Under the pieces are notes generated by a model. The model worked only from the letters and a program-made list of their open reading frames with translations. It searched no databases and was not told the DNA's origin. The translations under genes were made by a program, and so were the position numbers. Below, in pieces: positions 1-32,261 of a stretch of DNA of 38,630 nt; position 1 is the first letter of the stretch, and every line of letters begins with the position of its first letter. Location: positions 1-38,630 of IMG/VR virus record IMGVR_UViG_3300049728_000110. One strand, given 5' to 3'. The stretch is from a virus.

Positions 1-11
1 GGAAGCCGTGC
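1..11. other. Contig-end fold-back artefact
   Basis: Bases 1-13 are the exact reverse complement of bases 34-46. In the other copy of this locus (38490-38504) different sequence precedes the shared 126 bp, and that version continues the coat-protein reading frame. The first 11 bases are therefore most simply a chimeric or fold-back end of the assembly and not phage sequence. Confidence 0.75.
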
Positions 12-137
12 CGCAGGTTGCGTCTGCCACCATCGGCACGGCTTCCGGCGCGACTTCCACCAGCGCGGCTTTCACGGTCGGACAAACGGTTATCCCCCTC
101 GCCACCGCTGGCACCGGCCTGATTGTGGCTGGCGATG
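12..137. repeat. Terminal overlap, left copy (circular contig)
   Basis: Identical over 126 bp to 38505-38630. Both copies sit in the same codon phase of the coat-protein gene, so joining them gives one uninterrupted gene of 391 codons. This is the signature of a circular assembly graph (overlap close to a k-mer length), not of a biological terminal repeat, although a circularly permuted virion genome would give the same result. Confidence 0.9.
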
Positions 138-535
138 TTATCACATTCGCCAACGACACGAACAAGTACGTTGTGGCGTCGGCCACCATTGCCGGATCGA
201 ATCCGGCAACGGGCGATCAAATCGTGCTTGCGGCTCCTGGCTTGCGCAAGGCTCAGGGCGCGGCCACCCGCGCCATTACTGTCATTGGCACCAGCACATT
301 GCTGACCGCCAACTTGGCTTTCACGCAGAACGCTTTCTGCTACGGTTTCCGCCTGCCGACGGTTCCGGCTGAGGGAGACCTTGCCATCGCCCGCGAGATC
401 GTGCAAGACCCGCGCAGCGGCATCGCGTTCGAGTTGGCGGTTTACCCCGGCCACCGGATGAACCGATACGAGCTTTCTTGTGCCTACGGTTCGACGCTGG
501 TGAAGCCGGAACACGCGGCCCTGTTGGTTTACTGA
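12..535 (+). CDS. Major capsid protein, C-terminal part (P22 coat-like)
   Basis: This is the 3' part of the coat gene that starts at 37853; across the circular join the protein is 391 residues. The segment is rich in Gly, Ala, Thr and Val and contains AGDVITFANDTNKYVV, which resembles the beta-rich inserted (I-) domain of P22-type coat proteins. It ends in a conserved-looking C-terminus. It directly follows the protease/scaffold gene in the circular order, the usual place for a coat gene, and is followed by a strong terminator. The P22-coat family assignment rests on overall pattern and context. The exact domain limits are inference. Confidence 0.85.
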
Positions 536-568
536 TCTCGGTTCGCTCATTGGTCTGTCCTTTGTTTC

Positions 569-608
569 CCCGCCGCGCTGGCTTAACTAGCGCGGCGGGT
601 TTCGATTT
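569..608 (+). terminator. Rho-independent terminator after the coat gene
   Basis: A perfect 11-bp stem, CCCGCCGCGCT (569-579) with AGCGCGGCGGG (589-599), encloses a 9-nt loop and is followed by TTTCGATTT. It lies 34 bp after the coat stop codon. A terminator here would let the coat message accumulate separately from the downstream gene. The T-run is imperfect, so termination may be partial. Confidence 0.75.
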
Positions 609-947
609 ATGGCTGATTCAGATTACATCCTCGGCGGCTTCCGCGAAATGACGGCCAGCGACGTGCAGGGCGGTAGCGCCGTCTATGCCGGCGAAACGCT
701 CGATTGCACGGTAGGCGTGTTTGAACTGGAAAACCCGCTGCTTGCTGCCGGCGGTGGACATTCCCCCCGCCTGATGGGATTGATTGAGATTGCCGTTGAG
801 GACTTCCCCGCGAAGGCCGCGCTTGCCACCGGCCAGCCCATTGACGTAACCAGCATGGGCATTCTGCGCCACTGCAAGGTTGCGTCATGGGCCAACCTCG
901 GCCCCCTCTGGCAGATTACGGTTGTCGATCTGAACCAGGGCGCGTGA
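609..947 (+). CDS. Small structural protein after the coat gene (putative head completion)
   Basis: 112 residues, beginning MADSDYILGGF. It starts nine bases after the terminator hairpin with the context GATTTATGG, shared with other structural genes here (TTTATG). No signal peptide or membrane segment is seen. Its position between the coat gene and the tail cluster suggests a decoration or head-completion (stopper/connector) protein; this is inference from synteny, as no family motif is recognised. Its last 32 bases overlap, tail to tail, the end of the minus-strand accessory operon, and two TTCCCC motifs of the array (761, 804) fall inside it. Confidence 0.7.
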   Translation: MADSDYILGGFREMTASDVQGGSAVYAGETLDCTVGVFELENPLLAAGGGHSPRLMGLIEIAVEDFPAKAALATGQPIDVTSMGILRHCKVASWANLGPLWQITVVDLNQGA

Positions 948-1204
948 TTTCCCCCTGAGCCATCACGGCCAGCCGTTGCGGCACGAATTTCCCCCTACGC
1001 ACGCGGGCAGCGACTTCCTCACGCGCAAGCTCGCGCAGTCCCTGGCGCAAGGCCGCAACCCCCACGTCGGCCAGACTTCCCCGCATTGACCCCGCCAGGT
1101 AGCGCACGGCCAGGTATTCCCCCTGCGACCAGGGGACGATGAAGGGGTATTTGCTGGGTGTCCTCGTATTCCCCGCGCATGGGCGGGCTTTGTGGTGTGT
1201 TCAT
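916..1204 (-). pseudogene. Small accessory gene with a frameshift, downstream of the ligase
   Basis: An ATG at 1204 opens MNTPQSPPMRGEYEDTQQIP and then runs out of frame. The next frame continues immediately with FIVPWSQGEYLAVRYLAG and reads through to a stop at 916. Removing one base from the four-G run at 1144-1147 would give a continuous protein of 95 residues, largely helical and rich in Arg, Leu and Ala. The gene starts 4 nt after the ligase stop, so it is the last gene of the minus operon. The shift may be a homopolymer error, a true mutation or a programmed event. Function is not recognised. Confidence 0.55.
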
Positions 1205-1208
1205 AATC

Positions 1209-1850
1209 TCAATAGCTAACCAACCAACTGCCCGGAAAATCGGAGTCCAGCCGCGCCTCGCGCAACATTCCCCGCGCGGTCAGGCCAAAAGCCTCGACTT
1301 TGAGGACCGAGCCGACCCGCACATGGTCAAACCTGCTACGCAAGGCCAATTTCCCCCTATCCTCGCCCGTGGCTGCGTCGCAAAGCTTGACGCTTCCCCG
1401 CATAGGGTCAATACCGGCGACAACCACCCTGAACGTCTGGACGCGCTTACACTTGAGCCAGCCAGCGCCGAATGTGCCGGCCAGCGGCTTGGCAACCACA
1501 CCCTCCCCGCCTTCCCGGAGCAGGTGCTCCAGGAATTCCCCGCCCTGCCCCACGCGGCAAAGGCGGATATTCCCCGCGAGCGGTAGCGCAACACCCTGTA
1601 ACGCGGCCCAACGGTTCCAAGTGGATTCCCCGCGCATATCCTGCCCTTGAAGCGTGATTAGGTCGTTAACGACTAGCCGCCCGTCGCGCATCCGCTCGGC
1701 GTTGACGCTGGTAAAGTTCCCCAGGTCCGCGAATTCGTGCCGCCCGTCTGACTTCTCTTGGAACATGAAGCCCGAGTAATTCCCCCCGCGCCAGCGCAGG
1801 CCGGCGGCGAGGGGAACTGATTCGAGCTTGGGTTTGAGCAGGGCGGTCAT
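1209..1850 (-). CDS. Compact ATP-dependent DNA ligase
   Basis: 213 residues from ATG 1850. Nucleotidyltransferase motif I is EKSDGR, with the AMP-accepting lysine at about residue 33. A motif III-like VNDLI lies near 61-65. Motif IV EGVVAK is at 116-121 and a motif V-like KCKR at 133-136. The remaining ~75 residues, with VGSVLKVEAFGLT, fit a minimal C-terminal OB-fold. It would seal nicks in the phage or host DNA. It is much shorter than cellular ligases and lacks an N-terminal DNA-binding domain, as in small phage/Lig E-type enzymes. A TTG codon 24 bases upstream could extend it. It follows the KGG gene by 7 nt and is saturated with GGGGAA motifs. Confidence 0.85.
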   Translation of the reverse strand: MTALLKPKLESVPLAAGLRWRGGNYSGFMFQEKSDGRHEFADLGNFTSVNAERMRDGRLVVNDLITLQGQDMRGESTWNRWAALQGVALPLAGNIRLCRVGQGGEFLEHLLREGGEGVVAKPLAGTFGAGWLKCKRVQTFRVVVAGIDPMRGSVKLCDAATGEDRGKLALRSRFDHVRVGSVLKVEAFGLTARGMLREARLDSDFPGSWLVSY

Positions 1851-1857
1851 ATCTTTT

Positions 1858-1995
1858 TTAGCTAACGGTCTCAACTGGTTTCGGCTTCTTCGGCCGGCCG
1901 CCCAATTTCCCGTTTTTTCTCGCAGCTGCGGTTTTCGCGGCCGACTTCGATTTTCCCCCGACCCGTCCGAGTGCGACTGCTGCGGGGTTTTTCAT
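1858..1995 (-). CDS. Small KGG-motif basic protein
   Basis: 45 residues, beginning MKNPAAVALGRVGGKSKS and ending in a Lys/Pro-rich tail. The G-x-x-G-G-K ... A-A-A-R-x-N-G-K-x-G-G-R-P pattern is the short basic repeat (KGG-like) found in stress-response-type and many small phage proteins; nucleic-acid binding is a plausible but unproven role. AGAAG sits 5 nt before the ATG, and the ATG overlaps the stop of the upstream gene (ATGA), indicating translational coupling. It is easily missed because of its size. Confidence 0.75.
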   Translation of the reverse strand: MKNPAAVALGRVGGKSKSAAKTAAARKNGKLGGRPKKPKPVETVS

Positions 1996-2228
1996 ACGCT
2001 TCTCAGAACTTCGACGGTATCCTCGCTCCCCAACATTCGAGCAACAGGGTCCAGCTTACGCGACTCCTTCACTATCGTCCACGCGCGTCCAGTTTGGAGA
2101 TATACCGACCCGCAGCACGCATGAAAATGGATCAACGTCATTTGCTGACAAAGTTCGGGGTGACCAGGGACGCGAAGAATCGGGGTCTGCGGTGCAGTAA
2201 ATTCGTGGCCGCTCGGTGGGCAGATCAT
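1992..2228 (-). CDS. Unrecognised 78-residue protein of the accessory operon
   Basis: This frame is chosen because it has ATGA overlaps with both neighbours: its ATG overlaps the stop of the gene at 2225 and its stop overlaps the ATG of the KGG gene. The protein begins MICPPSGHEFTAP, has scattered Cys and His (Cys3, His8 and a central HFHACC) that could bind metal, and ends in an acidic, Leu-rich tail. No family is recognised. A competing frame at 2056-2280 looks protein-like too, so confidence is limited. Confidence 0.5.
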   Translation of the reverse strand: MICPPSGHEFTAPQTPILRVPGHPELCQQMTLIHFHACCGSVYLQTGRAWTIVKESRKLDPVARMLGSEDTVEVLRSV

Positions 2229-2650
2229 ATTTGGGGAGATTGTCCGGCACAGCTAGTCCAAGAGTTGTCCACGCCGACACGGTTTCCGAGGCCGTTGCGG
2301 GTTTCGCCGGTCTCGGTTATTCTCCACACCGGGCGAGCGGTGCGACTCGGCTTTTCGCTGCCTAAAAGGCAGGCATTGTGTCGGCGTTTGAGCCGGTCAC
2401 TGAGCGCGGAGGCCGTTGTACCGAGCTCGTCGGCTAGGTCGTTGAGCAGTTGCATGACCGCCGTTTCCGCCGCCGATTTGATTTTGTTTTCCACCGCCGC
2501 CGAAATTTCAGGGTTTGCGATTACGAGTTCCACGCCGCCGGTCGGCGTGCTCGGCAGCCAGTGATATTTCCAGCCTTTTGACGCGTCCATTTCGCGGACG
2601 GGGAATGTCGGTTGGTTTTTTGTTACCTCTACGGTTGTGCGTGTTTTCAT
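2225..2650 (-). CDS. Unrecognised 141-residue accessory protein
   Basis: Starts at MKTRTTVEVTKNQ (ATG 2650); an in-frame ATG 24 bases upstream (MTSQKEN) is possible. The middle, about residues 45-85, is a predicted amphipathic helix with ENKIKSAAETAVMQLLNDLA. The C-terminus is basic and then polar. There is no signal peptide or membrane segment. It is the third gene of the minus-strand operon and ends with an ATGA overlap to the next gene. Nothing in it identifies a function. Confidence 0.6.
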   Translation of the reverse strand: MKTRTTVEVTKNQPTFPVREMDASKGWKYHWLPSTPTGGVELVIANPEISAAVENKIKSAAETAVMQLLNDLADELGTTASALSDRLKRRHNACLLGSEKPSRTARPVWRITETGETRNGLGNRVGVDNSWTSCAGQSPQI

Positions 2651-2709
2651 ATTTTCTTTTTGGCTAGTCATAGCTCTTTGTTCGGTCTCAGTCGAGACCA
2701 TGTACCCAT

Positions 2710-2964
2710 CTAGCCTGCGGTTTGAACGGTGAAATTGTAGTTGTGGCCCTGTGTGGTGTGCGGCTCGCCTTTCGGAGTATAGCCGATGAACGCGGAAAAT
2801 TCTGCTAGCGTACCATCCTGTGAATATGCGCCCATATTGCATGTCCTCGCGTAGCCTGATTTCCCAAACTCCCGACGAGCGGCGCGGCCAGCGAACAATT
2901 CAGCCGCCGCCGTCATCGAATCAGCTATCACTGAGTTAAAAGTTTTGCATGTGTATCGCTCCAT
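2710..2964 (-). CDS. Small conserved-type phage protein (MERYTCK)
   Basis: 84 residues from ATG 2964, preceded by GGAG. The core ADSMTAAAELFAGRAARREFG followed by a short beta-rich tail resembles small accessory proteins common in environmental phages, where an N-terminal strand is followed by an A-x-x-F-A-x-R-x-A-R helix. Two upstream in-frame ATGs (3006 and 3030) exist. The latter overlaps the stop of the preceding gene as ATGA, so the true start could give up to 106 residues. Function is unknown. Confidence 0.6.
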   Translation of the reverse strand: MERYTCKTFNSVIADSMTAAAELFAGRAARREFGKSGYARTCNMGAYSQDGTLAEFSAFIGYTPKGEPHTTQGHNYNFTVQTAG

Positions 2965-3026
2965 TGTCGTTTCTCCACGGATTGCGAATTTTTCAGTCGT
3001 TTTCATTTTCGTTCTTTCTTTGGCGG

Positions 3027-3218
3027 TCATTTCGCGGCGGAGTTGAGTTTTTCCTGTTGGTCGGCGATGCATGAGTCGAGCGGGCGGAAGTCACCGCAAC
3101 CCTGGCATTGGCAATATCCGACGTCCAAGACATACCGGGTATTTCCGGAGTGACCCTTTTCGCAGCGCAGCAGTTTCACGTATCCCTCTTTATCGATTTT
3201 TAGTTTTGCAGTTGTCAT
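3027..3218 (-). CDS. Small zinc-ribbon-like protein, first gene of the minus operon
   Basis: 63 residues from ATG 3218 ([19 protein letters not shown]). Cys19, the following His and the cluster CQCQGCGDF near residues 40-48, plus a later Cys, are arranged like a treble-clef or zinc-ribbon metal site. The leader AAAGAACGAAAATG is repeated almost exactly at 3006, upstream of the next gene. As the promoter-proximal gene of an accessory operon it may be a regulator or an inhibitor protein; that is inference. Confidence 0.6.
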
Positions 3219-3372
3219 TTTCGTTCTTTCGTTTTCGAACAACCTTACTGGGGTCGCTCTCTTTATCTACCCACACAATAACCTATCCGCTTGGGTATGC
3301 AACAACTTTCTTCTCAGTACTTATACGGATGCCAATCGCCACAAGTTTATCGATACGAATTTATCGAAACGC
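3219..3372. promoter_or_regulatory. Intergenic region likely driving the minus operon
   Basis: A 154-bp non-coding stretch, AT-richer than its surroundings, precedes the first minus-strand gene. No strong -35/-10 pair is clear; a weak candidate on the minus strand is TTGCAT with a 16-bp spacer before TATTGT. It contains CACACAATA at 3273-3281, matched in inverted orientation by TATTGTGTG at 4443-4451 on the other side of the host-gene patchwork. Confidence 0.35.
3346..3371 (+). repeat. Tandem TTTATCGAWACG repeat at the edge of the host-gene insert
   Basis: TTTATCGATACG (3346-3357) is followed after 2 nt by TTTATCGAAACG (3360-3371), one mismatch in 12. The next base but one is the ATG of the atpD fragment. 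The tandem could be a binding site or the scar of an insertion. Confidence 0.6.
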
Positions 3373-4035
3373 ATGAATACAGGCAAAATCGTTCAAGTCA
3401 TCGGTCCGGTGGTGGACGTCGAGTTCCCCGATCAACTCCCCGCCATCTACAACGCCGTGACTATCGAATACGACCTTCCGCTCCAGGGGAAGGCCAAGCT
3501 GACGCTCGAAGTCCAGCAGCACCTCGGCGACCATTGGGTTCGCACCGTGGCCATGTCCACGACCGACGGCCTCAAGCGCGGCAAGGAATCGGTGCTCATC
3601 ATTGACGAAGCGCAAGACCTGACGGACGAATTGCTCGAACAGATCCGGCTGCTGTCGAACCTGGAGACGGACAACCGCAAGCTGCTGCAAATCGTATTGC
3701 TGGGCCAGCCCGAGCTGCGCGGCCGGCTCAACAATCCGCGACTGCGCCAACTGCGCCAGCGCATCACCGTCCGCTACCATTTGCCGCCGCTCAAACGCTT
3801 CGAGGTCACCCAATATGTGCAGCACCGGCTGCACGTCTCGGGCGGGAATGGCACGCCCTATTTCACCCGCCCTGCCCTGTGGCGAGTCCATCACTATAGC
3901 CAGGGCATTCCACGGCTCGTAAACGCGGTTTGCGACAAGGCCCTCCTGGCGGGGTTCGTTCAGCAAAGCGAGCGGATTGACTTTCGGATGGTCGGCCAGG
4001 CCGTTCGCGAACTCGAAGGACAAATCAACGCATGA
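3373..4035 (+). pseudogene. Chimeric ORF: AtpD N-terminus fused to ExeA/GspA-like ATPase C-terminus
   Basis: 220 residues. Residues 1-71 match the start of F-type ATP synthase beta ([20 protein letters not shown], then a TTDGLKRG-type segment). From about residue 72 the protein is the C-terminal half of an ExeA/MshM-type secretion ATPase: Walker [11 protein letters not shown], then [18 protein letters not shown] and the C-terminal helical lid. The frame is preserved across the junction near 3583. Both parents are cut before or after their Walker A loop, so no P-loop remains and ATPase activity is unlikely. It is followed, overlapping by 4 nt, by a GspB-like gene, the natural neighbour of ExeA. 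It may be captured host DNA or an assembly chimera. Confidence 0.75.
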
Positions 4036-4433
4036 GCTTAATCAACGATGCCTTAAGGCGGGCCAAAGAGACGCAGCAGCAAGCCTCTCCTCCGCCCCCA
4101 TCACCGATGCAATTCCGGCCGATCGAACCGGCGCGGCACGCCCGGTATGACTTCGGCCTGTTGATGCCCGCCGCATTGGCCGTGGTCGGGCTCCTCGCGC
4201 TCTTCTTCGCCTGGCAGTGGGCCCAGGGGCGCAAGTCAACGGAGCCGCGACAGGTGCGGGCGCTCGCCCCAGCGGCTGCGCAGGCGACAATCGCTCCTCA
4301 ACCGGTTTCCCCTTCGGTAGCGGCAACCGCCCCGGCACCAGCTCCGGCCGCCCAACCAACCCCGCCCTCGCAACCGCATCCATACAAAAACCACAACATA
4401 TTGTGTCCACACATAGGACACCGCAACATATAG
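4032..4433 (+). pseudogene. Truncated GspB-like membrane protein
   Basis: 133 codons, beginning [17 protein letters not shown], the hallmark N-terminus of GspB/ExeB-like partners of ExeA ATPases. A single membrane segment (about residues 39-58, LLMPAALAVVGLLALFFAW) follows, then an Ala/Pro-rich periplasmic linker. The natural protein should continue into a folded periplasmic domain. Here the reading frame degenerates near 4385, where composition changes abruptly to AT-rich sequence, so the right junction of the host-derived block lies about there. ATGA overlap with the upstream gene is preserved from the host operon. Confidence 0.7.
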
Positions 4434-20208: not shown

Positions 20209-20456
20209 GCACCACGACACAAAACCCCGACCACCTCACAATCTGGGACAAACCCAACGACCAGCTCAATACCCAGTACGGCCGCATTACGTACTTGGAC
20301 TGGTGCGAGCGCGAGGCCAGTCGGCTAACGGCATCGGGGACCAAGGCCCATGTGGCCAAAAGCACCACCGGCAAGGTGTGCGTGAAGAAAGTCAAGGCCA
20401 AGTGTTGCTGCGCCCCGGTTTGGGAATGCGACATAAATGGAAAGGCGATTAATTGA
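20205..20456 (+). CDS. Small early protein with Cys cluster
   Basis: 83 residues (MSTTTQNPDHLTIWDKPNDQ). The C-terminal third holds KCCCAPVWEC, a possible metal site, after a basic stretch (VCVKKVKAK). It is first in the coupled early operon; its stop overlaps the start of the ParB-like gene. No family recognised. Confidence 0.55.
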   Translation: MSTTTQNPDHLTIWDKPNDQLNTQYGRITYLDWCEREASRLTASGTKAHVAKSTTGKVCVKKVKAKCCCAPVWECDINGKAIN

Positions 20457-21220
20457 AAACCACGCTGCTGAAACTTGCCCAAATCATCACCACCGCAGGC
20501 ACCCAAATCCGCGCGCGCATAGACGGCGAGACTGTTGACCAGTACGCGGAAGCGATGCAGGACGCGGCCAACAAGTTCCCTACCGTTGTCGTGTTCCATG
20601 ACGGCTCTCAATACATCCTCGCGGACGGCTTCCACCGCGTCATGGCGGCGACCCGGAACGGATTCCTCGACATCGAAGCGGACGTGCGCAAAGGAACAAA
20701 GTCCGATGCGCTGAAGTTTGCCTTGAGTGCAAACACGTCTCACGGGCTGCGCCGGTCTAATCTCGACAAGCGCCGCTCAGTTGAACTGGCGTTGGCCGAG
20801 TGGCCGAAGCTGAGCGACCGGGAGCTTGCGAGGATTTGCGCGGTGTCCGACCACTTTGTTGGCGACGTGCGCCCAGTCTCAACTGCGATTCGTTCGCAGT
20901 TGCCCTCCACCCGCACCGGGGCCGATGGCAAAGAGCGCAGGATGCCAGCCCACGGCAAGGCAACAAGCTCCGCGCCAGAAACGGAACGCGAGGAAGAAAG
21001 GCCGCACGTCGTCTCCGGCCCGACGCCCGAACCCGAACCGGCGAAGCCTCGCGCAAAAGACAGTGAGTTTACTGCGGCAATCGGCGGCTCGAAGGCAATG
21101 CGCCTAATCTGCCAGTTCGACAACTGGCTGGAGTTCTACGTGCCGGACAAAAGCGAACGCAAGTGGGCGCTGAACCTGTTGGCAGATCATATTGAGGACC
21201 TGAAAGGAGCGCAGGTATGA
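20453..21220 (+). CDS. ParB/sulfiredoxin-fold protein
   Basis: 255 residues from TTG 20453, which overlaps the upstream stop (TTGA). Residues 45-75 contain YILADGFHRVMAATRNG, the D-G-x-H-R signature of the ParB-like nuclease/CTPase domain, followed by a conserved helical segment with LDKRRSVELAL and DRELARICAVS that looks like the ParB helix-turn-helix linker. The middle (about 160-205) is a disordered Pro/Glu/Arg linker, and the C-terminus is a small helical domain. Phage ParB-like proteins act as regulators or partition-like DNA-binding factors; which applies here is unknown. Confidence 0.75.
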   Translation: MKTTLLKLAQIITTAGTQIRARIDGETVDQYAEAMQDAANKFPTVVVFHDGSQYILADGFHRVMAATRNGFLDIEADVRKGTKSDALKFALSANTSHGLRRSNLDKRRSVELALAEWPKLSDRELARICAVSDHFVGDVRPVSTAIRSQLPSTRTGADGKERRMPAHGKATSSAPETEREEERPHVVSGPTPEPEPAKPRAKDSEFTAAIGGSKAMRLICQFDNWLEFYVPDKSERKWALNLLADHIEDLKGAQV

Positions 21221-21414
21221 ACTTCGATACTTACCTAGAAATTGCCGTCGAAGTTACATACAAGTGGGACCAAGACTCACTCGTGCTTGTTTCCGCGACG
21301 GTCAACGATTCTCCAGTCTGTTCGGACATTCTGCCGTTTCTCTCTGAAGCGCAGAGGGCCGGATTGGAAGACGAATGCCAGGAGCACTTCAAAAGGCAAC
21401 TGAAAGAGAATTAA
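21217..21414 (+). CDS. Small acidic protein
   Basis: 65 residues (MNFDTYLEIAVEVTYKWDQD), starting in the ATGA overlap with the ParB-like gene. Beta-hairpin-like N-terminus and a charged C-terminal helix (LSEAQRAGLEDECQEHF). No recognised function; early operon member. Confidence 0.55.
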   Translation: MNFDTYLEIAVEVTYKWDQDSLVLVSATVNDSPVCSDILPFLSEAQRAGLEDECQEHFKRQLKEN

Positions 21415-21416
21415 CT

Positions 21417-21623
21417 ATGAGTAGAATCCTAAGCGATCCCATCGTCTGTTTCATAATCGGCGTTATGACCCTATGGGCGATGCTCATGGTCCGGCTGGCT
21501 CGCGGAAAATCAGGTCCAGTTATCCCAAGCATTTCAAGTCCCGTCGCCCCGACTCTTAACCGTCGTCGTCACAGCCTAGCCCGTTGGCTGAGCGTGTCGC
21601 CGGCATTCCGAAAACAAAACTGA
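21417..21623 (+). CDS. Small membrane protein of the early operon
   Basis: 68 residues. One membrane helix near 9-27 (IVCFIIGVMTLWAMLMVRL) is followed by a basic, Ser/Pro/Arg-rich cytoplasmic tail. Early phage membrane proteins of this type often affect superinfection or host physiology; nothing specific is visible here. Confidence 0.5.
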   Translation: MSRILSDPIVCFIIGVMTLWAMLMVRLARGKSGPVIPSISSPVAPTLNRRRHSLARWLSVSPAFRKQN

Positions 21624-21627
21624 ACCC

Positions 21628-22014
21628 ATGAACACAAAACTCGAATCAATAGCCGCAGAAGCCGCCGACAACCTCAAGGCGTTAGTCAGAGAAAACGAGG
21701 ACAAGCTCTTGGAGGCGTGGTCCTCATGCGAGGCCGAAGCCCACGCCAACGAGTCTATGCCAAAGTTCAAACTCGGTCTGGGAGTCACCTTGGACCTCGA
21801 CGGAAACAAGATGACCACCGACCTGTCGTGGTGCGTGCGCTACAAGGCAACGGCGGAATGCGCGATACCGGACCCAGACCAAGGCAAGTTGCCGCTGGAC
21901 GAAAAGACAACGGTGACGATTAAGGCTGAGAGCGGCAATGAGGTTACGGTTCCAATGCCGGTATTTAGGGCAGCCGTCGCCGATTTGAAACGCCAGCGAA
22001 GGGCGAAGGTGTAA
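21628..22014 (+). CDS. Unrecognised protein upstream of recT
   Basis: 128 residues. A helical N-terminus (LESIAAEAADNLKALVREN) is followed by a beta-rich segment and a basic C-terminal AVADLKRQRRAKV. It lies 52 bp before recT, so it may belong to the recombination module. Single-strand-binding function was considered, but no OB-fold or aromatic signature is clear. Confidence 0.55.
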   Translation: MNTKLESIAAEAADNLKALVRENEDKLLEAWSSCEAEAHANESMPKFKLGLGVTLDLDGNKMTTDLSWCVRYKATAECAIPDPDQGKLPLDEKTTVTIKAESGNEVTVPMPVFRAAVADLKRQRRAKV

Positions 22015-22066
22015 CGCAAACCCGCAGTCAATCAAACACCAAACTAAGAAAACAAACGAGAACAAC

Positions 22067-23164
22067 ATGAGCATACAAACACAGGCAGTTCAAACCCGAG
22101 ACCCCGAGAAGGCAATCGAGTTCATTCCATATGGAGCGGCAGACAAAATCCGCCTCTCAGTCAAGATCATCCAAAACATGGTGGCCGTTCCCACCAAGAG
22201 CGGAAAGACGTGCAGCGAGCGAGACGCGCTGCGCTTCCTCATGCTCTGCCAGGCGCAACGGCTCAACCCGTTCGCCGGCGATGCCTTCCTTGTCGGATAC
22301 GATTCGCAGGACGGTCCTTCGTTCTCCCTCATCACCGCGCATCAGGCATTCTTGAAGCGCGCCGAGACGTGCGCTGATTTCGAGGGCATGGAATCGGGCA
22401 TCATCCTGCTAGGCGACGACGAGAATCCTACCATCAGTGAGCGCGAGGGTGACTTCCACCTGGAGAATGAGATCGTTGTAGGCGGCTGGGCGCGCGTTCA
22501 TCGCAAGGGCCGGCGCGACACCTACCGGCGAATCCGCATGGGTCGGTTCAACAAGGGCTTCGCGCAATGGAAGGCGGACGCAGCGGGCATGATCGTCAAG
22601 TGTGCGGAGGCAGACGCCCTGCGCAGCACGTTCCCGACGCTGCTGGGCGGCCTTTACATGCAGGGCGAACAGGACGGCGCTGCCGGGCGCATCGTGGCGG
22701 AAATGTCTATCAGCCGTCCAATCTTTGAAGCGCCAGCGAAGCTGATAGAAAGCAAGATGTCATCATCGGATCACTTCCACGCCAGCCAAGAATCGCAGGC
22801 GAGGATTGACGACGTCGAAGGCACAGACCTCGGCCCGCAGAAATCTCCCTCCACTGACACGGCAGCGGCTCAGTCAGAGCCGGAAAGGAATGTGCAACGC
22901 GCGGCTCAAGAGCCGCCGCCGCCGGAGGACCCAAGCGCAGCCGTCAAGCGTCAGGCGAAGGCGCTCAAATCCCTGCTGACGATGAAAGGGCACAGTGAGG
23001 TTGAGTTGATCCAGTTCCTTGTCGCTCAGAAGGGTCTGGATGACTCGCTCGGAACGCTGAACGAAATCAGCAAAGTGGCCGGAAAGTTCCTGGGCGAGAT
23101 TCACGACGGCTGGGCGAAGATCGAACCGGAGTTGCGCGCGTGGAAGGAGGAGCAGACCAAGTGA
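22067..23164 (+). CDS. recT: RecT/Bet-family single-strand annealing protein
   Basis: 365 residues. Residues about 30-200 show the family pattern: CSERDALRFLMLCQAQRLNPFAGDAF, then GPSFSLITAHQAFLKRA, a GGWARVHRKGRRDT strand and KADAAGMIVKCAEADALRSTFP. The remaining ~150 residues are a Ser/Pro/Glu-rich linker and a small helical C-terminal domain, longer than in typical RecT. It would anneal complementary single strands and promote recombination during phage replication. The nuclease gene immediately downstream is the expected exonuclease partner. Confidence 0.9.
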   Translation: MSIQTQAVQTRDPEKAIEFIPYGAADKIRLSVKIIQNMVAVPTKSGKTCSERDALRFLMLCQAQRLNPFAGDAFLVGYDSQDGPSFSLITAHQAFLKRAETCADFEGMESGIILLGDDENPTISEREGDFHLENEIVVGGWARVHRKGRRDTYRRIRMGRFNKGFAQWKADAAGMIVKCAEADALRSTFPTLLGGLYMQGEQDGAAGRIVAEMSISRPIFEAPAKLIESKMSSSDHFHASQESQARIDDVEGTDLGPQKSPSTDTAAAQSEPERNVQRAAQEPPPPEDPSAAVKRQAKALKSLLTMKGHSEVELIQFLVAQKGLDDSLGTLNEISKVAGKFLGEIHDGWAKIEPELRAWKEEQTK

Positions 23165-23221
23165 GTGCTGAAATCCTACAACTCCAAATTGGAAGGAAAC
23201 CGTTGCGGGGGTGATGAGAAC

Positions 23222-24643
23222 ATGACAACCCAACCCACAACACCAGACGAGCGCGGTGGCCACACTAGCGCCAGCAACGCCGAAGCTGACAGCCTCTGTC
23301 AAGGTCGGTTTCTCGCCCAGCGCGGCCTGCCAGAGCCGCCCGCAACCGATTACTCCGACTCGGGTGAGGTAATCCACTGTCTTTACACCGACAGCGAAAA
23401 GCCAAGTCGAGAACCGATGCCTGACGAAATCGACAAGGCCGACGAATTGCGCAATCGCGAGAACGAGGTGGCAGCCTTGGCGGGATTTGGACCGGAGTGC
23501 ATGCGGCTCGTGGAAAAGCGATTGTGGCACGATATTGGGGACGATCCTATCGTAGCCGACTGCAAACACTCAGGCCGCTTTGACGTGTGCCTTTACGACG
23601 TGCCGAAACGTCGGGCCTTGATTCTGGATGCCAAATCGGGATGGCTTCCAGTCCCGCCGCCGAATACCAATCTTCAACTCCGGGACCTGGCGGCACTGTT
23701 TTGGGCGGAATTCCAGCCGACGGAGATCCTGGTGAACATCCTCAAGCCGTTTGGTCGGCAGGACGCGTCCTGCCTCTACCTCGAAGGCGACCTGGAAGAG
23801 AGCCTGCGCCAAATGGAAGAACGGGTCCGCCGGTCGAATGACACGCAAGCGAAGCGGACGCCCGGGGAAGCGCAGTGCCGCTATTGTCGCGCGGCCTACT
23901 GGGGCCGATGCAAAGTGCATTCCGACTGGCTGGCAAGTTGCCTGCCGGTCCTCGCTCCACCGCTTCGGATGGTATCTGCGGCCGAGTGGACGCCGGAACA
24001 GCGCGCTGTGTTCTGTGAGCGCATGGGAACTGCGGCCAAGTGGCTGGAAGCCCGCAAGGATGAAATCAAAGCCCTGCTGAAAGCGGACCCTGCAAGCGTG
24101 CCTGGCTTCGGGTTGCGCGACGGGCGCAAGCTGGAAACCATAATCAATCCGCAAGCGGTCTTTGAGCGCTTTGTACTATCCGGGGGCAATACCGAAGCAT
24201 TCCTGCGCGCGGTTAAGGTTGGTAAGACCGCACTCAAAGACGAGGTGCGCGAAGTCTCTGGCAAGAAAGGAAAGGCGCTGGATACCGAACTGGCGCGGAT
24301 GATCGAAGGTTGCACGGAAACACGTCAGAGTGACCCGCAGATAGCGGCGTTCGTATTGGAGCCGCAGAACAGCGAAGTGAGCAGCGGCGCGAAAACACCG
24401 GACATGAATATGGACACCAACACACAAACAGAACCGGCTCCGCCGGTTCGCTCGACTGACGGGTTGGGCCAGTGGGACTGCAAGACGCCCGGATTCGACA
24501 GCGTAGAGGTAATCGAAATCAAAGACGCATACGTGAGGTTCAGAACCCGATGGGGAACAGTCACGCGCTCGCGCCGCGGCTTCATGAAAAACTATCGGCC
24601 CAACGTGGGAAATGAGCCACGCCCGACCAAAGACCATGAATAA
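23222..24643 (+). CDS. PD-(D/E)XK nuclease, partner of RecT
   Basis: 473 residues from ATG 23222; a GTG at 23165 directly after the recT stop would add 19 residues. SGEVIHCLY (47-55) is the N-terminal G-x-x-(I/V)-H motif. D121 in HSGRFDVC and DAK at 136-138 form the catalytic D ... D-x-K set. The Cys-rich CRYCRAAYWGRC near 220 recalls the iron-sulphur or zinc region of Cas4/AddB-type nucleases. It is likely the 5'-3' or 3'-5' resecting exonuclease that feeds RecT. The final ~80 residues (after TNTQTEPAPPV) form a small separate beta domain. Confidence 0.8.
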   Translation: MTTQPTTPDERGGHTSASNAEADSLCQGRFLAQRGLPEPPATDYSDSGEVIHCLYTDSEKPSREPMPDEIDKADELRNRENEVAALAGFGPECMRLVEKRLWHDIGDDPIVADCKHSGRFDVCLYDVPKRRALILDAKSGWLPVPPPNTNLQLRDLAALFWAEFQPTEILVNILKPFGRQDASCLYLEGDLEESLRQMEERVRRSNDTQAKRTPGEAQCRYCRAAYWGRCKVHSDWLASCLPVLAPPLRMVSAAEWTPEQRAVFCERMGTAAKWLEARKDEIKALLKADPASVPGFGLRDGRKLETIINPQAVFERFVLSGGNTEAFLRAVKVGKTALKDEVREVSGKKGKALDTELARMIEGCTETRQSDPQIAAFVLEPQNSEVSSGAKTPDMNMDTNTQTEPAPPVRSTDGLGQWDCKTPGFDSVEVIEIKDAYVRFRTRWGTVTRSRRGFMKNYRPNVGNEPRPTKDHE

Positions 24644-24920
24644 ACCTGCGATCCTTGCGGACAACGGACAGCGCCAACGGGCGTTGGCTCCGGTGACTTG
24701 TTCGGCGACGGTTGGGGGGTGGTGGGTGTTCCGCCTGGACAAGCACGACCATGCGAAAATCGGCGACTACTGGGCTGGCCCGTTCCTGCACAAATCTAAA
24801 GCGAATGAATGGGTGAAAAAGCAAACTTGGCCGAATCAGCTAATCGTCGGACGCCCAGCAATAATCTGCGACGAGTCGCCGAACGCTCCGGCTCAGCGAC
24901 CGCCGGCCACTGACGTATGA
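24636..24920 (+). CDS. Small unrecognised early protein
   Basis: 94 residues from ATG 24636 (MNKPAILADNGQRQRALAP), which overlaps the nuclease stop by 8 bases; an ATG at 24612 would give 102. A short folded core with GGWWVFRLDKHDHAKIGDYW looks like a small beta domain. No function recognised. Confidence 0.5.
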   Translation: MNKPAILADNGQRQRALAPVTCSATVGGWWVFRLDKHDHAKIGDYWAGPFLHKSKANEWVKKQTWPNQLIVGRPAIICDESPNAPAQRPPATDV

Positions 24921-25153
24921 ACACACCTGAAACGCAATCCGGCGGTTCGCTGAAGCCGGTTGGTTCGGAAAGATCGTGCTGGTTTACAGACGACTCCGAT
25001 CTACATCCCGAAACCGGATGCCCGTCCGCAGATGACTGGCTAACGGTCGCCACAAACGGTCGGGAGAGGTGGATAAATTGCAGCCAATGCAACGGAACGT
25101 GGATGCTTCCGAACACTGAGCTGAGGCACGGCGGCGATAACTCCAAAGCATGA
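24917..25153 (+). CDS. Small protein with a possible zinc knuckle
   Basis: 78 residues in ATGA overlap with both neighbours. It contains CSQCNGTW near residue 55 and two further Cys earlier (SCWFTDDSD, GCPSADDW), an arrangement compatible with one metal site. Position just upstream of the methyltransferase. Confidence 0.55.
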   Translation: MNTPETQSGGSLKPVGSERSCWFTDDSDLHPETGCPSADDWLTVATNGRERWINCSQCNGTWMLPNTELRHGGDNSKA

Positions 25154-25914
25154 GCATTGAGGCGACCATCCAAACCGCCAGCGAGCCCGCCGTTGTCCTC
25201 AAGCGATTTGTTAGGGGTCATTTGGTGGCGACGCTCTATCTAGGGGACTGCCTAGAGATGCTGCCGATAATGGCCGACGCGGTAATCAGCGACCCTCCCT
25301 ACGGGATGGACTGGGACACTGACAGCACGCGATTCAGTGGCGGGCAATCCTCTGGCATCAGGCGCAAGCCGCGAGGCGAAGGCCGCGGGCGCCAATCTCA
25401 ATATGGTGACTACGGGAAAATCGACGGCGACTGCGAACCCTTCGACCCCGCGCCGTGGATCGAGTATCCGCGCTGCGTTCTATTTGGAGCCAACCACTAC
25501 GCGCAACGCCTGCCCGTCGGCACAACGCTGGTGTGGCTCAAGAAAGGCCAGCACCTATGGGGCACGTTTCTGAGCGATGCGGAAATCGGATGGATGAAAG
25601 GCGGCTGCGGCGTCTATGCCATTCTGAAATCGTTCCCGCCGCCAGTGCGAGCCGTGGACGCGGGCGGCGACCCGTGCCGTCCGGTGGGAATCCACCCGAC
25701 GCAAAAGCCGGTGGCCCTAATGGCGTGGTGTATGGAGCGGGCAAAGGTGCCTGCAGGAGCGACCGTCCTAGACCCCTACATGGGCAGCGGAACTACGGGT
25801 ATCGCCTGCCTGCGGACTGGCCGCAACTTCATAGGCATCGAGAAAGACCCCAAGCATTTTGCAACCGCCGTCGCGCGTCTGGAACGCGAGATAAACCAAG
25901 GTGAGTTGCTATGA
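25150..25914 (+). CDS. Adenine-N6 DNA methyltransferase (beta-class order)
   Basis: 254 residues. Motif IV DPPY is at 48-51 (ISDPPYGMDW), HPTQKP at 182-187, and the SAM-binding motif VLDPYMGSGTTG at 206-217. Catalytic motif before SAM motif is the beta-group order, and DPPY indicates an N6-adenine target. No restriction endonuclease gene accompanies it, so it probably protects the phage genome or marks it for regulation. It is in ATGA coupling with both neighbours. Confidence 0.9.
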   Translation: MSIEATIQTASEPAVVLKRFVRGHLVATLYLGDCLEMLPIMADAVISDPPYGMDWDTDSTRFSGGQSSGIRRKPRGEGRGRQSQYGDYGKIDGDCEPFDPAPWIEYPRCVLFGANHYAQRLPVGTTLVWLKKGQHLWGTFLSDAEIGWMKGGCGVYAILKSFPPPVRAVDAGGDPCRPVGIHPTQKPVALMAWCMERAKVPAGATVLDPYMGSGTTGIACLRTGRNFIGIEKDPKHFATAVARLEREINQGELL

Positions 25915-25940
25915 CCCCTAACGACCAAGCTCACACATGA
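25911..25940 (+). CDS. Tiny coupling ORF, 9 residues
   Basis: MTPNDQAHT starts in the methyltransferase stop (ATGA) and ends in the next gene's start (ATGA). It exactly bridges the 22-bp gap. Same arrangement as at 20176. Confidence 0.3.
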   Translation: MTPNDQAHT

Positions 25941-26221
25941 GGGCCGCCCAACCAACTCCCGAATCGCCCACCAGCACAGCGCGGCCCTCATTGTGTGCAG
26001 CGCCTGGTTCGGAGTGGTCGCGGGCCGAAATCCACATGGAGATGGCCAACGCGGCATTCCGGCTGGCATCGCGAAATGAGCACGGCAAAGAGATGGTCAT
26101 AGAGCACCTAAAGAGGGCAATCCAAACTCTCGAAGCACAAACTCCGAACACCGAACTCAGGCGCGCGGGGCACCTGAGCAACGACAAACAGACAGGCGCA
26201 ACCCCGCGTCGCCTGGACTGA
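25937..26221 (+). CDS. Small helical early protein
   Basis: 94 residues. A Pro/Thr-rich N-terminus precedes a helical segment (SRAEIHMEMANAAFRLASRN) and a second helix (MVIEHLKRAIQTLEAQ), then a basic tail. Function unknown. Confidence 0.5.
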   Translation: MRAAQPTPESPTSTARPSLCAAPGSEWSRAEIHMEMANAAFRLASRNEHGKEMVIEHLKRAIQTLEAQTPNTELRRAGHLSNDKQTGATPRRLD

Positions 26222-26227
26222 CTGGTT

Positions 26228-26404
26228 ATGCTGACCGATACTGAAGCCATCGAAGCCGAGAAAACTGCATGGGAGTGGTTTGCCGAGGCACATCCGCACG
26301 AAGCGTATGCAAGCTGGCCGGACCGATTCTGGGAGTTCTTCCACCGCAAGTGTCCGAACCTCAAACGGGAAGAAATGGAAGCCCTCCTTGCTGCTGGTGA
26401 ATAG
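26228..26404 (+). CDS. 58-residue acidic protein
   Basis: MLTDTEAIEAEKTAWEWFAE followed by a Trp/Phe-rich centre (WPDRFWEFFHRKC) and an acidic helix ending EALLAAGE. Starts 6 nt after the previous stop. The high aromatic and acidic content and good codon structure favour a real gene; role unknown. Confidence 0.5.
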   Translation: MLTDTEAIEAEKTAWEWFAEAHPHEAYASWPDRFWEFFHRKCPNLKREEMEALLAAGE

Positions 26405-26434
26405 CATAACAAGTAATTAGGACAAACTGAGCAC

Positions 26435-26527
26435 ATGCCTAGGGACTGGAAAGGACCGTACAACAGGCGCTTGCAGCAACGCGCTTCGGAGCGCGGGAAG
26501 CGGATGGCGGCGAATTATCGTGATTGA
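26435..26527 (+). CDS. 30-residue basic protein
   Basis: MPRDWKGPYNRRLQQRASER followed by GKRMAANYRD. Very basic, probably helical. Its stop lies 17 nt before the rusA start. Too short for certainty, but it fills the gap in the operon. Confidence 0.35.
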   Translation: MPRDWKGPYNRRLQQRASERGKRMAANYRD

Positions 26528-26544
26528 TATGCAGAAATGCACCT

Positions 26545-27042
26545 ATGAGACCCACACTTGAATTCTTTGCTGCTGGCTATCCAGCCGGCCAGCCCCGCGT
26601 CAAGGCAAGAGCATTCGGCGGCCATGCCCGTGTTTACACGCCCACCACCGTCAAGAGCAGTGACGGCCTCAGGCATGAGCACCCGGCAACGTCGTGGAAG
26701 ATGATCGTCAGGAATGAGGCCGCAAAAGCGTGGATCAAAGAGCCAATACCGCAACTAATGCAATGGCAAGGCCCGCTCCGTGTTGACCTTACATTCTACT
26801 TTCCGAGGCCCAAGTCGCACTTCCGATCCAATGGAGAGTTGAAGCCGACTGCGCCCGTCTGGCACACGGCAAAACCGGACAGGGATAACAGCGACAAGGC
26901 GGTTCTCGATGCACTGACAGACCTGGGGCTTTGGGGCGATGACAAGCAGGTGTGCGACGGGAGAGTCCGCAAGCTGTATTGCCCGCCCGGGTGCTCCCCT
27001 GGGTGCGAGATTGTAATTCAGGAAGCGGGAGAAGCACAATGA
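26545..27042 (+). CDS. rusA: RusA-type Holliday junction resolvase
   Basis: 165 residues from ATG 26545 (MRPTLEFFAAGYPAGQPRVK). The diagnostic catalytic segment KPDRDNSDKAVLDALTDLG, with the Asp set and Lys, is near residues 112-130 and is followed by WGDDKQV, as in RusA. It cleaves four-way junctions, useful for resolving recombination and replication intermediates before packaging. It has ATGA coupling to the next gene. Confidence 0.9.
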   Translation: MRPTLEFFAAGYPAGQPRVKARAFGGHARVYTPTTVKSSDGLRHEHPATSWKMIVRNEAAKAWIKEPIPQLMQWQGPLRVDLTFYFPRPKSHFRSNGELKPTAPVWHTAKPDRDNSDKAVLDALTDLGLWGDDKQVCDGRVRKLYCPPGCSPGCEIVIQEAGEAQ

Positions 27043-27191
27043 CCCACTCGCAACTCGCCACCCTCTCTCGCCGAGTCTCTCGCCTAGAGCGAATCGTTGT
27101 TATCCTAAAAGCGATTTACAGCGTGCGATACAGCTCGGAATTGGATCGGCTGCAAGCGGAGTTGAAAGAGGAAACGGGAGGAAACACTTGA
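27039..27191 (+). CDS. 50-residue helical protein
   Basis: MTHSQLATLSRRVSRLERIV continues as one amphipathic helix and a second helix (SSELDRLQAELKEE), a likely coiled coil. Begins in the ATGA overlap with rusA. Function unknown. Confidence 0.5.
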   Translation: MTHSQLATLSRRVSRLERIVVILKAIYSVRYSSELDRLQAELKEETGGNT

Positions 27192-27449
27192 ATGACCAAG
27201 ACTCGCTTCCAACTCCTAAATCAAAAGCGCCTCTGTATGCAACGCCTCCGCGCCGAGAGACGCGGCCAATGCGTGGACGGCCTGCCGAAGCGCCTACGTG
27301 CGCTCCGGGGCGATGGGCAACGCGCGCCGATGCCGACAGGCCGCAGAGACAGGCTTGTGAGCAACGGGCTACTGTCGTGCTCATTTGATGCCATTGGAGG
27401 TCCCGTGCATGGAGATGCGTTGGAAAGGTTGGAGAAGATAACTAGGTGA
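27192..27449 (+). CDS. Small basic protein
   Basis: 85 residues (MTKTRFQLLNQKRLCMQRLR), starting immediately after the previous stop. Rich in Arg (over 15%), with GGPVHGDALERLEKITR at the end. A nucleic-acid-binding role is plausible. A competing frame (27188-27388) covers the same bases, so this call is moderate. Confidence 0.45.
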   Translation: MTKTRFQLLNQKRLCMQRLRAERRGQCVDGLPKRLRALRGDGQRAPMPTGRRDRLVSNGLLSCSFDAIGGPVHGDALERLEKITR

Positions 27450-27469
27450 ACCCGTTGACTCCAATCCAT

Positions 27470-27598
27470 ATGCGTGAACGTCAGCAAATCCGAAGATTCA
27501 ATCGCGCCACCGCGTGGGAACTCTCCCGCTTTCGAGCTGGCGTTCACGCCCGGGTTGGTGGCGCGATTGAGTTTTCAACCCATTGGGAGAGTGACTAA
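27470..27598 (+). CDS. 42-residue basic protein overlapping the interlocked repeat
   Basis: MRERQQIRRFNRATAWELSR, then FRAGVHARVGGAIEFSTHWE and SD. It ends directly before the ATG of the replication gene (TAA-ATG). Because the same bases form three pairs of inverted repeats, the reading frame may be a by-product of an RNA or DNA element. Confidence 0.45.
   Translation: MRERQQIRRFNRATAWELSRFRAGVHARVGGAIEFSTHWESD
27472..27592. repeat. Interlocked inverted repeats A-B-C-A'-B'-C'
   Basis: A, GCGTGAACGTCAGC (27472-27485), pairs with A' (27536-27549), 13 of 14 with the odd pair a G-U in RNA. B, TCAATCGCGCCACC (27498-27511), pairs perfectly with B' (27557-27570). C, ACTCTCCC (27520-27527), pairs perfectly with C' (27585-27592). 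The order means the three stems cross each other, as in a multiple pseudoknot or mutually exclusive hairpins. Start-to-start offsets are 64, 59 and 65. It lies immediately upstream of the replication-protein gene. Confidence 0.8.
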
Positions 27599-28513
27599 AT
27601 GCCACAGCGTTTTCTCAGACCTGGAATCACCAATAGCGATAGGTTCAACTCAGTTGACCTATTCTGCCAAAGCCTTTACATCCGCATCCTAACCAAGGTT
27701 GACGACTACGGGCGATACGATGCTCGCCCGTCAGTTTTGGCCGGTGAGTGCTTCTCTGTATGGAACGAAAAGCACCCCGAACAGCAAATAGATTCCGCTG
27801 CGGTTTCCTGCGGAATCCTGCGCCTTGCTGCGGAAAAACTGATAGCGCTATACGGCTGCGACGGCAAGAAAGTTCTGCAAGTCACGCAATGGCAGGAACG
27901 TGTGCGTGATGGGGCTAAGGAGAAATGGCCTATTTCCGGTAATCCGCTGCGGAATCCTGCGGAATCCTGCGGAATCCTGCCTCCCTCGTCCCCGTCCCCG
28001 CCCTCGTCCCCGCCCTCGTCCCCGCCCTCGTCCACGCCCTCGTCCACGCCCTCGTCCACGCCCTCGTCCACGCCCACGCCTTCGCCCTCGTCCACGCCCA
28101 CGCCTTCGCCCGTGCGCACGACGCCCGAACCCGAACCGGAAAGTGTGTGTGTGAATTTGCCATTGCAGAAGCAGAAGGCTGACTCCCAAGTGGACGCCCG
28201 CTTCAAGTGGCTCGAAGCCGAACTCTGCCGGATGTATAAACGCCCCCGCCCGACCGTTGGCCGCGGCGAGGAAGAGCACCTAGTTGCCGAAATCGCGCGG
28301 CGCCCAGACGTGAGGGCTGAGCTTGCGGAACTGAAAAGCGCCCGGGCCGAAATCGGAGAGCGGTATTTCCCGCAATCACTGTCTGCACTCTGCCGCGATT
28401 GGGACAAGACTCTGGATCGGGCCAGGAATCACGCACCGCCACCAAAGTCGTATAAGGAAAAGTCCATGACTGAGAAAGAGCTTGAGAGACTCGAAAGGAT
28501 GATAGGGACATGA
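27599..28513 (+). CDS. Phage replication protein with low-complexity linker
   Basis: 304 residues. The N-terminal domain (1-125: MPQRFLRPGITNSDRFNSVD, then VDDYGRYDARPSVLAGECF and an ALYGCDGKKVLQVTQWQE segment) resembles the winged-helix N-terminus of phage replisome-organiser/primosome proteins. A Ser/Pro/Thr tract (127-175) encoded by 12-bp repeats links it to a C-terminal helical domain (about 190-304). As in lambda O, the repeats inside the gene may form the origin. No helicase motifs are present. It ends with an ATGA overlap. Confidence 0.65.
   Translation: MPQRFLRPGITNSDRFNSVDLFCQSLYIRILTKVDDYGRYDARPSVLAGECFSVWNEKHPEQQIDSAAVSCGILRLAAEKLIALYGCDGKKVLQVTQWQERVRDGAKEKWPISGNPLRNPAESCGILPPSSPSPPSSPPSSPPSSTPSSTPSSTPSSTPTPSPSSTPTPSPVRTTPEPEPESVCVNLPLQKQKADSQVDARFKWLEAELCRMYKRPRPTVGRGEEEHLVAEIARRPDVRAELAELKSARAEIGERYFPQSLSALCRDWDKTLDRARNHAPPPKSYKEKSMTEKELERLERMIGT
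27951..27980 (+). repeat. Three tandem GGAATCCTGC repeats (possible iterons)
   Basis: Three exact tandem 10-bp copies lie inside the replication-protein gene. A fourth copy is at 27812-27821, flanked by CTGCGGTTTCC. In-gene iterons of the initiator are the lambda/P22 origin design. A 10-bp period equals about one helix turn, placing each site on the same DNA face. Confidence 0.65.
27982..28112 (+). repeat. 12-bp tandem repeats CCCTCGTCC(A/C)CG
   Basis: About ten imperfect copies encode the Ser-Pro/Ser-Thr-Pro linker. The strong C-rich strand asymmetry, continuing directly from the 10-bp iterons, may matter for melting or may simply be slippage-driven linker growth. Confidence 0.7.
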
Positions 28514-29880: not shown

Positions 29881-30438
29881 ATGAGCGACAAACCATCCGT
29901 TACCGTCAAAGCCGCACTGATTAGGCAGTTCAATGAAGCGCATCGCATTTTCATGGATGCGTCAAACTCATCCGCGAGAGACATGGTGAGGTCTGTAAAT
30001 CAGACCAGAACTATGGGCATTCTCATCAAGGAATTGCTCGGGCGCGAGAACGTCACCGAGAATTGCTTGCGTGAATGGCTGCGCGACAATTCAGGCGCAC
30101 TTGCCGAGACTGAGGTTGCGTGGTTAATGAACTACGTTCGCATCTCAAACAAGATGCAGAACCAGCCGAAGCAGTTGAATGACATACCCAACTCTGTCAT
30201 GCAAATGACGTTTCAGTGTTCGGGTATAATCGAAATTCCAGGCGCGCGCGAACTAGCGCAGACCAGTCACGAACTGACCCCATCGGTGCAGTCATGGAAA
30301 TTCTATACCGACTTCAAGATAAGGTTTGAGGGGATGATAAAAGCAGCCCCGACGTGGAATGAGGAGCAGCGAGAGGCGGTGCGGGAGAACATCGAAAAGA
30401 CTCGCGCATTCCTGACTGAACTGGAAACAAGACTGTGA
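29881..30438 (+). CDS. Unrecognised helical protein upstream of the small terminase
   Basis: 185 residues (MSDKPSVTVKAALIRQFNEA), helical almost throughout. TFQCSGIIEIPGARELAQ is the only non-helical insert. Its stop overlaps the GTG of the next gene (GTGA). Position suggests a packaging or late-switch role, unproven. Confidence 0.5.
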   Translation: MSDKPSVTVKAALIRQFNEAHRIFMDASNSSARDMVRSVNQTRTMGILIKELLGRENVTENCLREWLRDNSGALAETEVAWLMNYVRISNKMQNQPKQLNDIPNSVMQMTFQCSGIIEIPGARELAQTSHELTPSVQSWKFYTDFKIRFEGMIKAAPTWNEEQREAVRENIEKTRAFLTELETRL

Positions 30439-32037: not shown

Positions 32038-32261
32038 AGGTTGGAACCTGTTCATTCTGCGGTCACTGGGGCTTGCTGTGGGGCAAGTGGTGCAAGGCCC
32101 CGTTTCAGAACAAAGCCGGGGCGCGCAAGGCGCATTGGCGGCGATGGGTTCACGCCAAGAACAAAGTGGCCGACCCGCTGCCCGATACCGATTGGATTGA
32201 ACTGAATCTACAGGCAGGCGGATACCACTACGGGCGCAAGCGAAAGGTGCATGGCCTGTGA
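32034..32261 (+). CDS. Small zinc-finger protein between PAPS-like gene and terminase
   Basis: 75 residues (MKVGTCSFCGHWGLLWGKWC). Cys6, Cys9, Cys20 and nearby His make a compact zinc site. The remainder is basic and Trp-rich. ATGA overlap with the previous gene and GTGA overlap with the terminase gene. Confidence 0.6.
   Translation: MKVGTCSFCGHWGLLWGKWCKAPFQNKAGARKAHWRRWVHAKNKVADPLPDTDWIELNLQAGGYHYGRKRKVHGL

Follow-up and report, generated by a model that had tools for sequence, protein, structure and literature searches.

The window analysed here is the whole 38,630-nucleotide stretch of the IMG/VR virus record IMGVR_UViG_3300049728_000110, and the features that bear on its GGGGAA array are listed in Table 1. 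Positions 12-137 and 38505-38630 of the window both align to one 126-base stretch of a second contig, L001, which is 99.97 and 99.94% identical to the window over two blocks. L001 apparently bridges the end of the record to its start and supports reading the record as a circular map.

Table 1. Features of the window in and around the array, with the array sites that fall in each.
Feature	Position	Strand	Sites	Basis
GGGGAA array	566..1958	-	17 copies	Motif count; pooled six-record consensus C-N-(not A)-GGGGAA-W-T
Major head protein, C-terminal part, P22-coat-like	8..535	+	0	phrog_283, E 1.5e-30
Terminator-like hairpin, 13 pairs, behind capsid gene, at left edge of array	569..599	+		Consensus match only
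Convergent gene behind capsid gene	609..947	+	2, antisense	No family match
Short open frame 3' of ligase, gene status uncertain	919..1107	-	3	
Predicted small ATP-dependent DNA ligase, Lig E-like	1209..1862	-	8	KxDG and EGVVAK motifs, phrog_114, Foldseek
Small basic protein, 45 aa, GRPKK close to C-terminus; first gene of array part	1858..1995	-	1	
Upstream small genes of the counter-oriented block	2056..3242	-	0 on sense strand	
ParB-like protein, RecT annealing protein, exonuclease, DNA methylase, RusA resolvase, replication initiation protein	20453-28510			Family match
Terminase, GpA-type	32258-34303			Family match

The ligase of the window gives a weak sequence match to phrog_114 (E 0.0014) and none in Pfam, and no relatives of it were found among 50,697 phage records. 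An AlphaFold2 model of the aligned ligase family, with the ligase of the related phage G011 as its first row, reached a pLDDT of 86.7, and the top Foldseek match of this model was Lig E (6gdr, E 2.6e-10); on this structural prediction the gene product is a small ATP-dependent DNA ligase. Three terminator-like hairpins were found against 4.2 expected in shuffles, so that at 569..599 counts as a mere consensus match. A 23-base near-repeat (91%) lies 5' of two small minus-strand genes, at 2999-3021 and 3211-3233, and is perhaps a shared leader. In the open frame at 3373-4433, an ATP synthase beta-subunit N-terminus is fused to an AAA domain that we take to resemble ExeA/MuB, and a presumably GspB-like frame follows. 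As the near-identical contig L001 stops at window position 3366, the 3373-4433 frame could come from a host fragment or from chimeric assembly.

The array is a real feature, beyond chance and composition. Read on the plus strand as TTCCCC, its 17 copies start at 566, 761, 804, 949, 989, 1077, 1117, 1169, 1268, 1351, 1394, 1536, 1570, 1626, 1717, 1780 and 1953, with 13 of the 17 starts within 949-1780, and a single plus-strand GGGGAA lies inside the block, at 1811. This recount is identical to that of an earlier sequence-only reading, which gave 17 copies at 566-1953, 13 of them within 840 bp, and the one plus-strand copy. Outside the array block, the remainder of the 38,630-base window holds four TTCCCC and 15 GGGGAA, and an unbiased hexamer search returned TTCCCC as the top-scoring strand-specific hexamer cluster of the window. 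The expectation of about 0.5 copies given earlier agrees with base composition alone; an order-2 Markov model of the array segment predicts 2.5. On the sense strand of the segment, one-mismatch neighbours of GGGGAA average 1.0 copies, and the two commonest, GGGGGA and GGGAAA, are GGGGAA shifted by one base and overlapping it. The intervals for the Markov and one-mismatch tests, and for the pooled flank consensus and the gap test described below, were drawn wholly or mostly from the motif itself. The sequence-only reading had also held that protein constraint was not the cause and had named codon-preserving shuffles as the check. Shuffling did not reproduce the count in the window ligase gene, which has 8 sites where 2000 shuffles averaged 1.58 and never exceeded 6, and sites occur in all three codon phases; the claim stands. 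Tandem repeats, composition and codon use were rejected as sources of the array on the distinct flanks of all 17 copies, the Markov model and the codon shuffles, respectively. Assembly error was rejected because the near-identical contig L001 has the same array.

The array is not unique to the window and recurs in several phages that share its terminase and a small DNA ligase. Alignments yielded 16 loci for the ligase and 53 for the terminase, and 16 records, several of them fragments, were examined at their full extent. GGGGAA occurs 17 times on the sense strand and once on the opposite strand in the array of the window phage (G000), 20 times in 3.2 kb in G001 (L066; none opposite), 31 times in 6.5 kb in G011 (one opposite, with a second opposite copy just beyond the stretch), 22 times in 4.1 kb in G012 (L101; none opposite) and 11 times in 5.2 kb, or 13 in 10.6 kb, in G013 (one opposite). 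The fragment G018 has six copies in 1.4 kb at its end with none opposite, and G005 has a weak cluster of 6 in 1.2 kb, GGGGAA being absent from its eight top-scoring hexamers listed. The top words of G006, G008, G009, G010 and G014-G017 included no array of the GGGGAA or GGGAA type. Among 80 capsid relatives, the array was present only in G001, whose ligase is 35% identical to that of the window and alike in position and orientation, and in L003, the window phage's second contig.

Of the relatives with the ligase, G001, G011, G012 and G013 carry the array and G007 carries one in another spelling, and G006, G008, G009 and G010 possess a ligase and no array. In G012 the ligase is also ~20 kb distant from the array. 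An association with the ligase alone was rejected on these two observations, and they likewise disfavour a mobile cassette tied to the ligase. For 25 genes or frames from five phages, 2000 codon-preserving shuffles averaged 27.9 sites and reached 45 at most, against 78 observed, a total that includes one G012 gene in the wrong frame (21 stops) and becomes, by subtraction, 71 against ~26 without it. In its correct frame that gene has 8 sites against 2.96 (P 0.0005), and several individual genes are non-significant alone. The sense sites are distributed 33, 22 and 19 over the three codon phases, again with the wrong-frame G012 gene included.

The word itself varies between phages. An unbiased word search of G007 returned GTGGGAA at the corresponding place, with 12 copies in 2 kb around the ligase and none opposite; every one-mismatch neighbour of this word has two copies or fewer, and the G007 ligase gene contains 7 against 0.74 in codon shuffles. 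TGGGGAA is the preferred spelling in G012 and GGGGGAA in G011. In a flank pool of 109 sites from G000, G001, G005, G011, G012 and G013, position -3 is C in 52%, position -1 is A at only 2 of the 109 sites, the base after GGGGAA is A or T in 84% and the base following that is T in 54%. G012 also carries an identical 40-base element at 30322 and 31180, in which an 8-bp stem surrounds GGGGAA, apparently 5' of genes. Clusters of ACGAAC or CACGAAC occur in G006 (25.3-28.1 kb), G013 (55.6-57.7 kb) and G015 (12.5-15 kb), with copies restricted to two of three coordinate phases in G006 and G013; in contrast to the GGGGAA array, these are probably Thr-Asn codons.

The arrays are confined to one block of genes. 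This block is antiparallel to the plus-strand late genes in G000, G001, G011 and G013, and to the minus-strand late genes in G012. When hexamers were ranked by block sense versus late sense, with block edges set at gene edges, GGGGAA ranked 1 of 1528, 2 of 1792, 3 of 2289, 1 of 2162 and 2 of 2478 in G000, G001, G011, G012 and G013, respectively; for this gene-edge test the short G007 interval was converted by hand from locus coordinates. The array extends into the convergent gene in G000, G001 and G007. In the window its first site (566) abuts the terminator-like hairpin behind the capsid gene and the block's small upstream genes (2056-3242) are spared, and in G012 the array spans the entire block and the contig ends before the convergent junction. 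Aligned ligases have most of their sites at differing columns, the few shared columns being between G000 and G011, between G001 and G011, and among G000, G001 and G013. At several ligase sites the encoded residues differ too, one case being GE in place of the GA of relatives, and therefore the density of sites rather than their position appears to be kept across ligases.

Outside the block, the sense strands of the five GGGGAA phages together hold 25 copies against 44.1 expected, and none of 500 shuffles was as low. This pooled depletion comes mainly from G013 (1 against 12.1) and G012 (2 against 7.4), with 6 against 9.7 in G011 and 2 against 3.3 in G001; the window phage is not depleted (14 against 11.5). 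Taken together, the nine phages that lack a strong array are not depleted (113 against 122.8), G010 alone being low (2 against 6.6). Outside its block G007 has its own word once against 4.1 expected (P 0.07) and GGGGAA 14 times against 12.6. Sites outside the block in the same orientation as the array (antisense) are not enriched, at 12 against 19.3 summed over rows.

The array phages are uncultured and their hosts are probably Verrucomicrobia, a class-level guess. A search of the genome-contig collection returned one terminase relative, which lies in a MAG of Verrucomicrobia subdivision 3, and no ligase relatives; a relative of the ligase that lacks an array was seen in another genome of the same class. 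Neither 110 kb of coding DNA from the candidate-host MAG (16 against 19.6) nor 88 kb of coding DNA from a complete Verrucomicrobiae contig (24 against 31.8) is enriched in GGGGAA. A collection scan for three spaced GGGGAA scored at least 80 loci; most of the 12 viewed by context were tandem or intergenic repeats, and L135 and L182 have mild non-repeat clusters. The IMG/VR contigs L114, L155, L118, L179 and L190 share clusters of seven to nine GGGGAA, which in L114 and L155 read by context as repeats of the form AATCCTGGGGAA. Three spaced GGGGAA matched 50 of 384 Verrucomicrobiae genomes, many via tandem repeats, and no phage-like arrays were present among the 30 Verrucomicrobiae loci viewed.

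Stoperators offer the closest model for the interpretation that we favour. According to PMC9283540 and PMC6550527, they are asymmetric, aligned with transcription, inactive when reversed and genome-specific in motif; in the cluster A mycobacteriophages L5 and TipsytheTRex they are 13 bp long, genome-wide, mostly intergenic and bound by a known monomeric repressor. The present arrays resemble them in having many asymmetric sites in one orientation to transcription (17/1, 20/0, 31/1, 22/0 and 11/1, and 12/0 in G007) and in their phage-specific variants (GTGGGAA in G007, TGGGGAA in G012 and GGGGGAA in G011). Unlike stoperators, they have 6-7 bp cores packed densely into one block, mostly inside genes, and their reader is putative. 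We give a probability of roughly 0.35 to the reading that the arrays serve a dedicated factor, probably encoded by the phage, which recognises the sites in an orientation-dependent way and silences block transcription in the manner of stoperators. The short asymmetric sites would mark one transcription unit, the block antiparallel to the late genes, and the factor would read them in the orientation of transcription. It is probably phage-encoded because each phage spells its own word, either GGGGAA with varied flanks or GTGGGAA. Most likely, DNA-bound one-way roadblocks would stop or silence RNA polymerase heading through the block to the late structural genes, as repressor-bound stoperators do in cluster A mycobacteriophages. 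The sites, their single-strand orientation, their restriction to the block, their turnover at maintained density and their dialects are observed, whereas recognition by a protein, action on the DNA and arrest of transcription are inferred.

Such a roadblock fits the orientation, the dialects, the avoidance elsewhere and the location of the sites toward the convergent late genes. A bound protein would suit the scarcity of gaps shorter than 34 bp (7 against 17.8 by random placement in six arrays), a post hoc result on motif-defined intervals; site pairs 9-10 bp apart do occur in G001, G012 and G013, and helical phasing of the sites showed no consistent period. Against the roadblock, the promoter-proximal block genes at 2056-3242 are site-free, the window phage does not avoid the word outside the block, the G012 array takes up all of its block, and seventeen sites in 1.4 kb exceed what a roadblock should need. 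No repressor or binding protein for the sites was identified. We place the roadblock slightly ahead of recognition at the RNA level, its main rival.

In that alternative, which is possible though doubtful, a protein or nuclease would read GGGGAA or its dialect in the block mRNA and set its decay, protection or translation. Restriction to the sense strand, use of all codon phases, high density and a short core typical of RNA readers are all in keeping with it, as is the rarity of the word on the late sense strands of G012 and G013. However, antisense sites in the convergent late gene would need read-through RNA, and the scarcity of sites outside the block holds for both strands rather than for the sense strand alone. 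Folding points both ways: sites are unpaired a little more often than when their flanks are shuffled (0.514 against 0.465, standard error ~0.020) and the duplicated G012 element holds GGGGAA in a hairpin loop region, but presentation in hairpin loops follows no general rule. The core recognised by CsrA/Rsm proteins is ANGGA. The array word shares its GGA, but with A before GGGG at 2 of 109 sites the ANGGA core is nearly excluded, which with the lack of a hairpin rule disfavours the CsrA sites proposed in the sequence-only reading. A precedent is T4 RegB, which according to PMC3014915 targets GGAG, prefers early mRNAs and has its sites mainly in translation initiation regions between genes. Like GGAG, the array word is short, G-rich and on the sense strand, and in G012 and G013 it is restricted to one class of transcripts; the array sites, however, fall within coding sequence, in every phase and at far higher density.

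Less likely than either is biased mutation or word insertion by phage or host that keeps writing GGGGAA on one strand to no function. The fast turnover of sites, the tolerance of the proteins to changes and the position of some sites beside alignment gaps with extra residues would agree with this, but it does not account for flank preferences beyond the hexamer, the different exact word of G007 or the avoidance elsewhere in G012 and G013. Chi sites are short, G-rich, asymmetric words spread over host genomes, and their strand matters. The array word is likewise short, G-rich and confined to one strand, which would suit a Chi-like or other genome-oriented DNA signal for recombination, packaging, replication or strand-loading, and G007 sites often read TGGTGGGAA, recalling the E. 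coli Chi word. We nevertheless consider this origin, also proposed in the sequence-only reading, improbable: the word is limited to the block, same-orientation sites are unenriched outside it, the sampled Verrucomicrobia DNA is likewise unenriched, with the host itself a class-level guess, and RecT and an exonuclease are encoded by the phage itself. Among the earlier candidates, recognition by a DNA-binding protein survives, and Chi-like sites, CsrA and the ligase-tied cassette are disfavoured. Least probable of all is an ordinary cause in codon use, amino-acid content or a G-rich coding strand, since although purine-rich coding strands mildly favour GGGGAA (15 against 4 outside the window array) and the block is rich in GGGG runs, codon-preserving shuffles fall short of the observed counts, all three phases are used, the word is specific against its one-mismatch neighbours, sites lie antisense in the convergent gene, and ACGAAC in G006, at two of three phases only, offers the contrast of an apparent codon effect.

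The available extracts of the literature on short oriented words, Chi or strand bias in phages and Verrucomicrobia contain no description of such arrays, which have the look of densely packed one-way control sites that are new to the literature. We tentatively propose, at rather less than even odds, a new phage regulatory layer in which a short, one-way, phage-specific word would mark a transcription unit along its entire length and within its genes. Selection would keep the word at high density at the cost of the protein, and a putative factor separating block from late transcription would read it. If a phage factor does read the sites, no denser oriented arrays within phage genes would be known to us, and the sites would reveal either stoperator-like control beyond the mycobacteriophages or its counterpart at the RNA level. 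As the word differs between related phages, its change would then give a sequence handle for locating the reader protein. The sites also coincide with residue differences between homologous ligases, which suggests that a nucleotide word can shape a protein.
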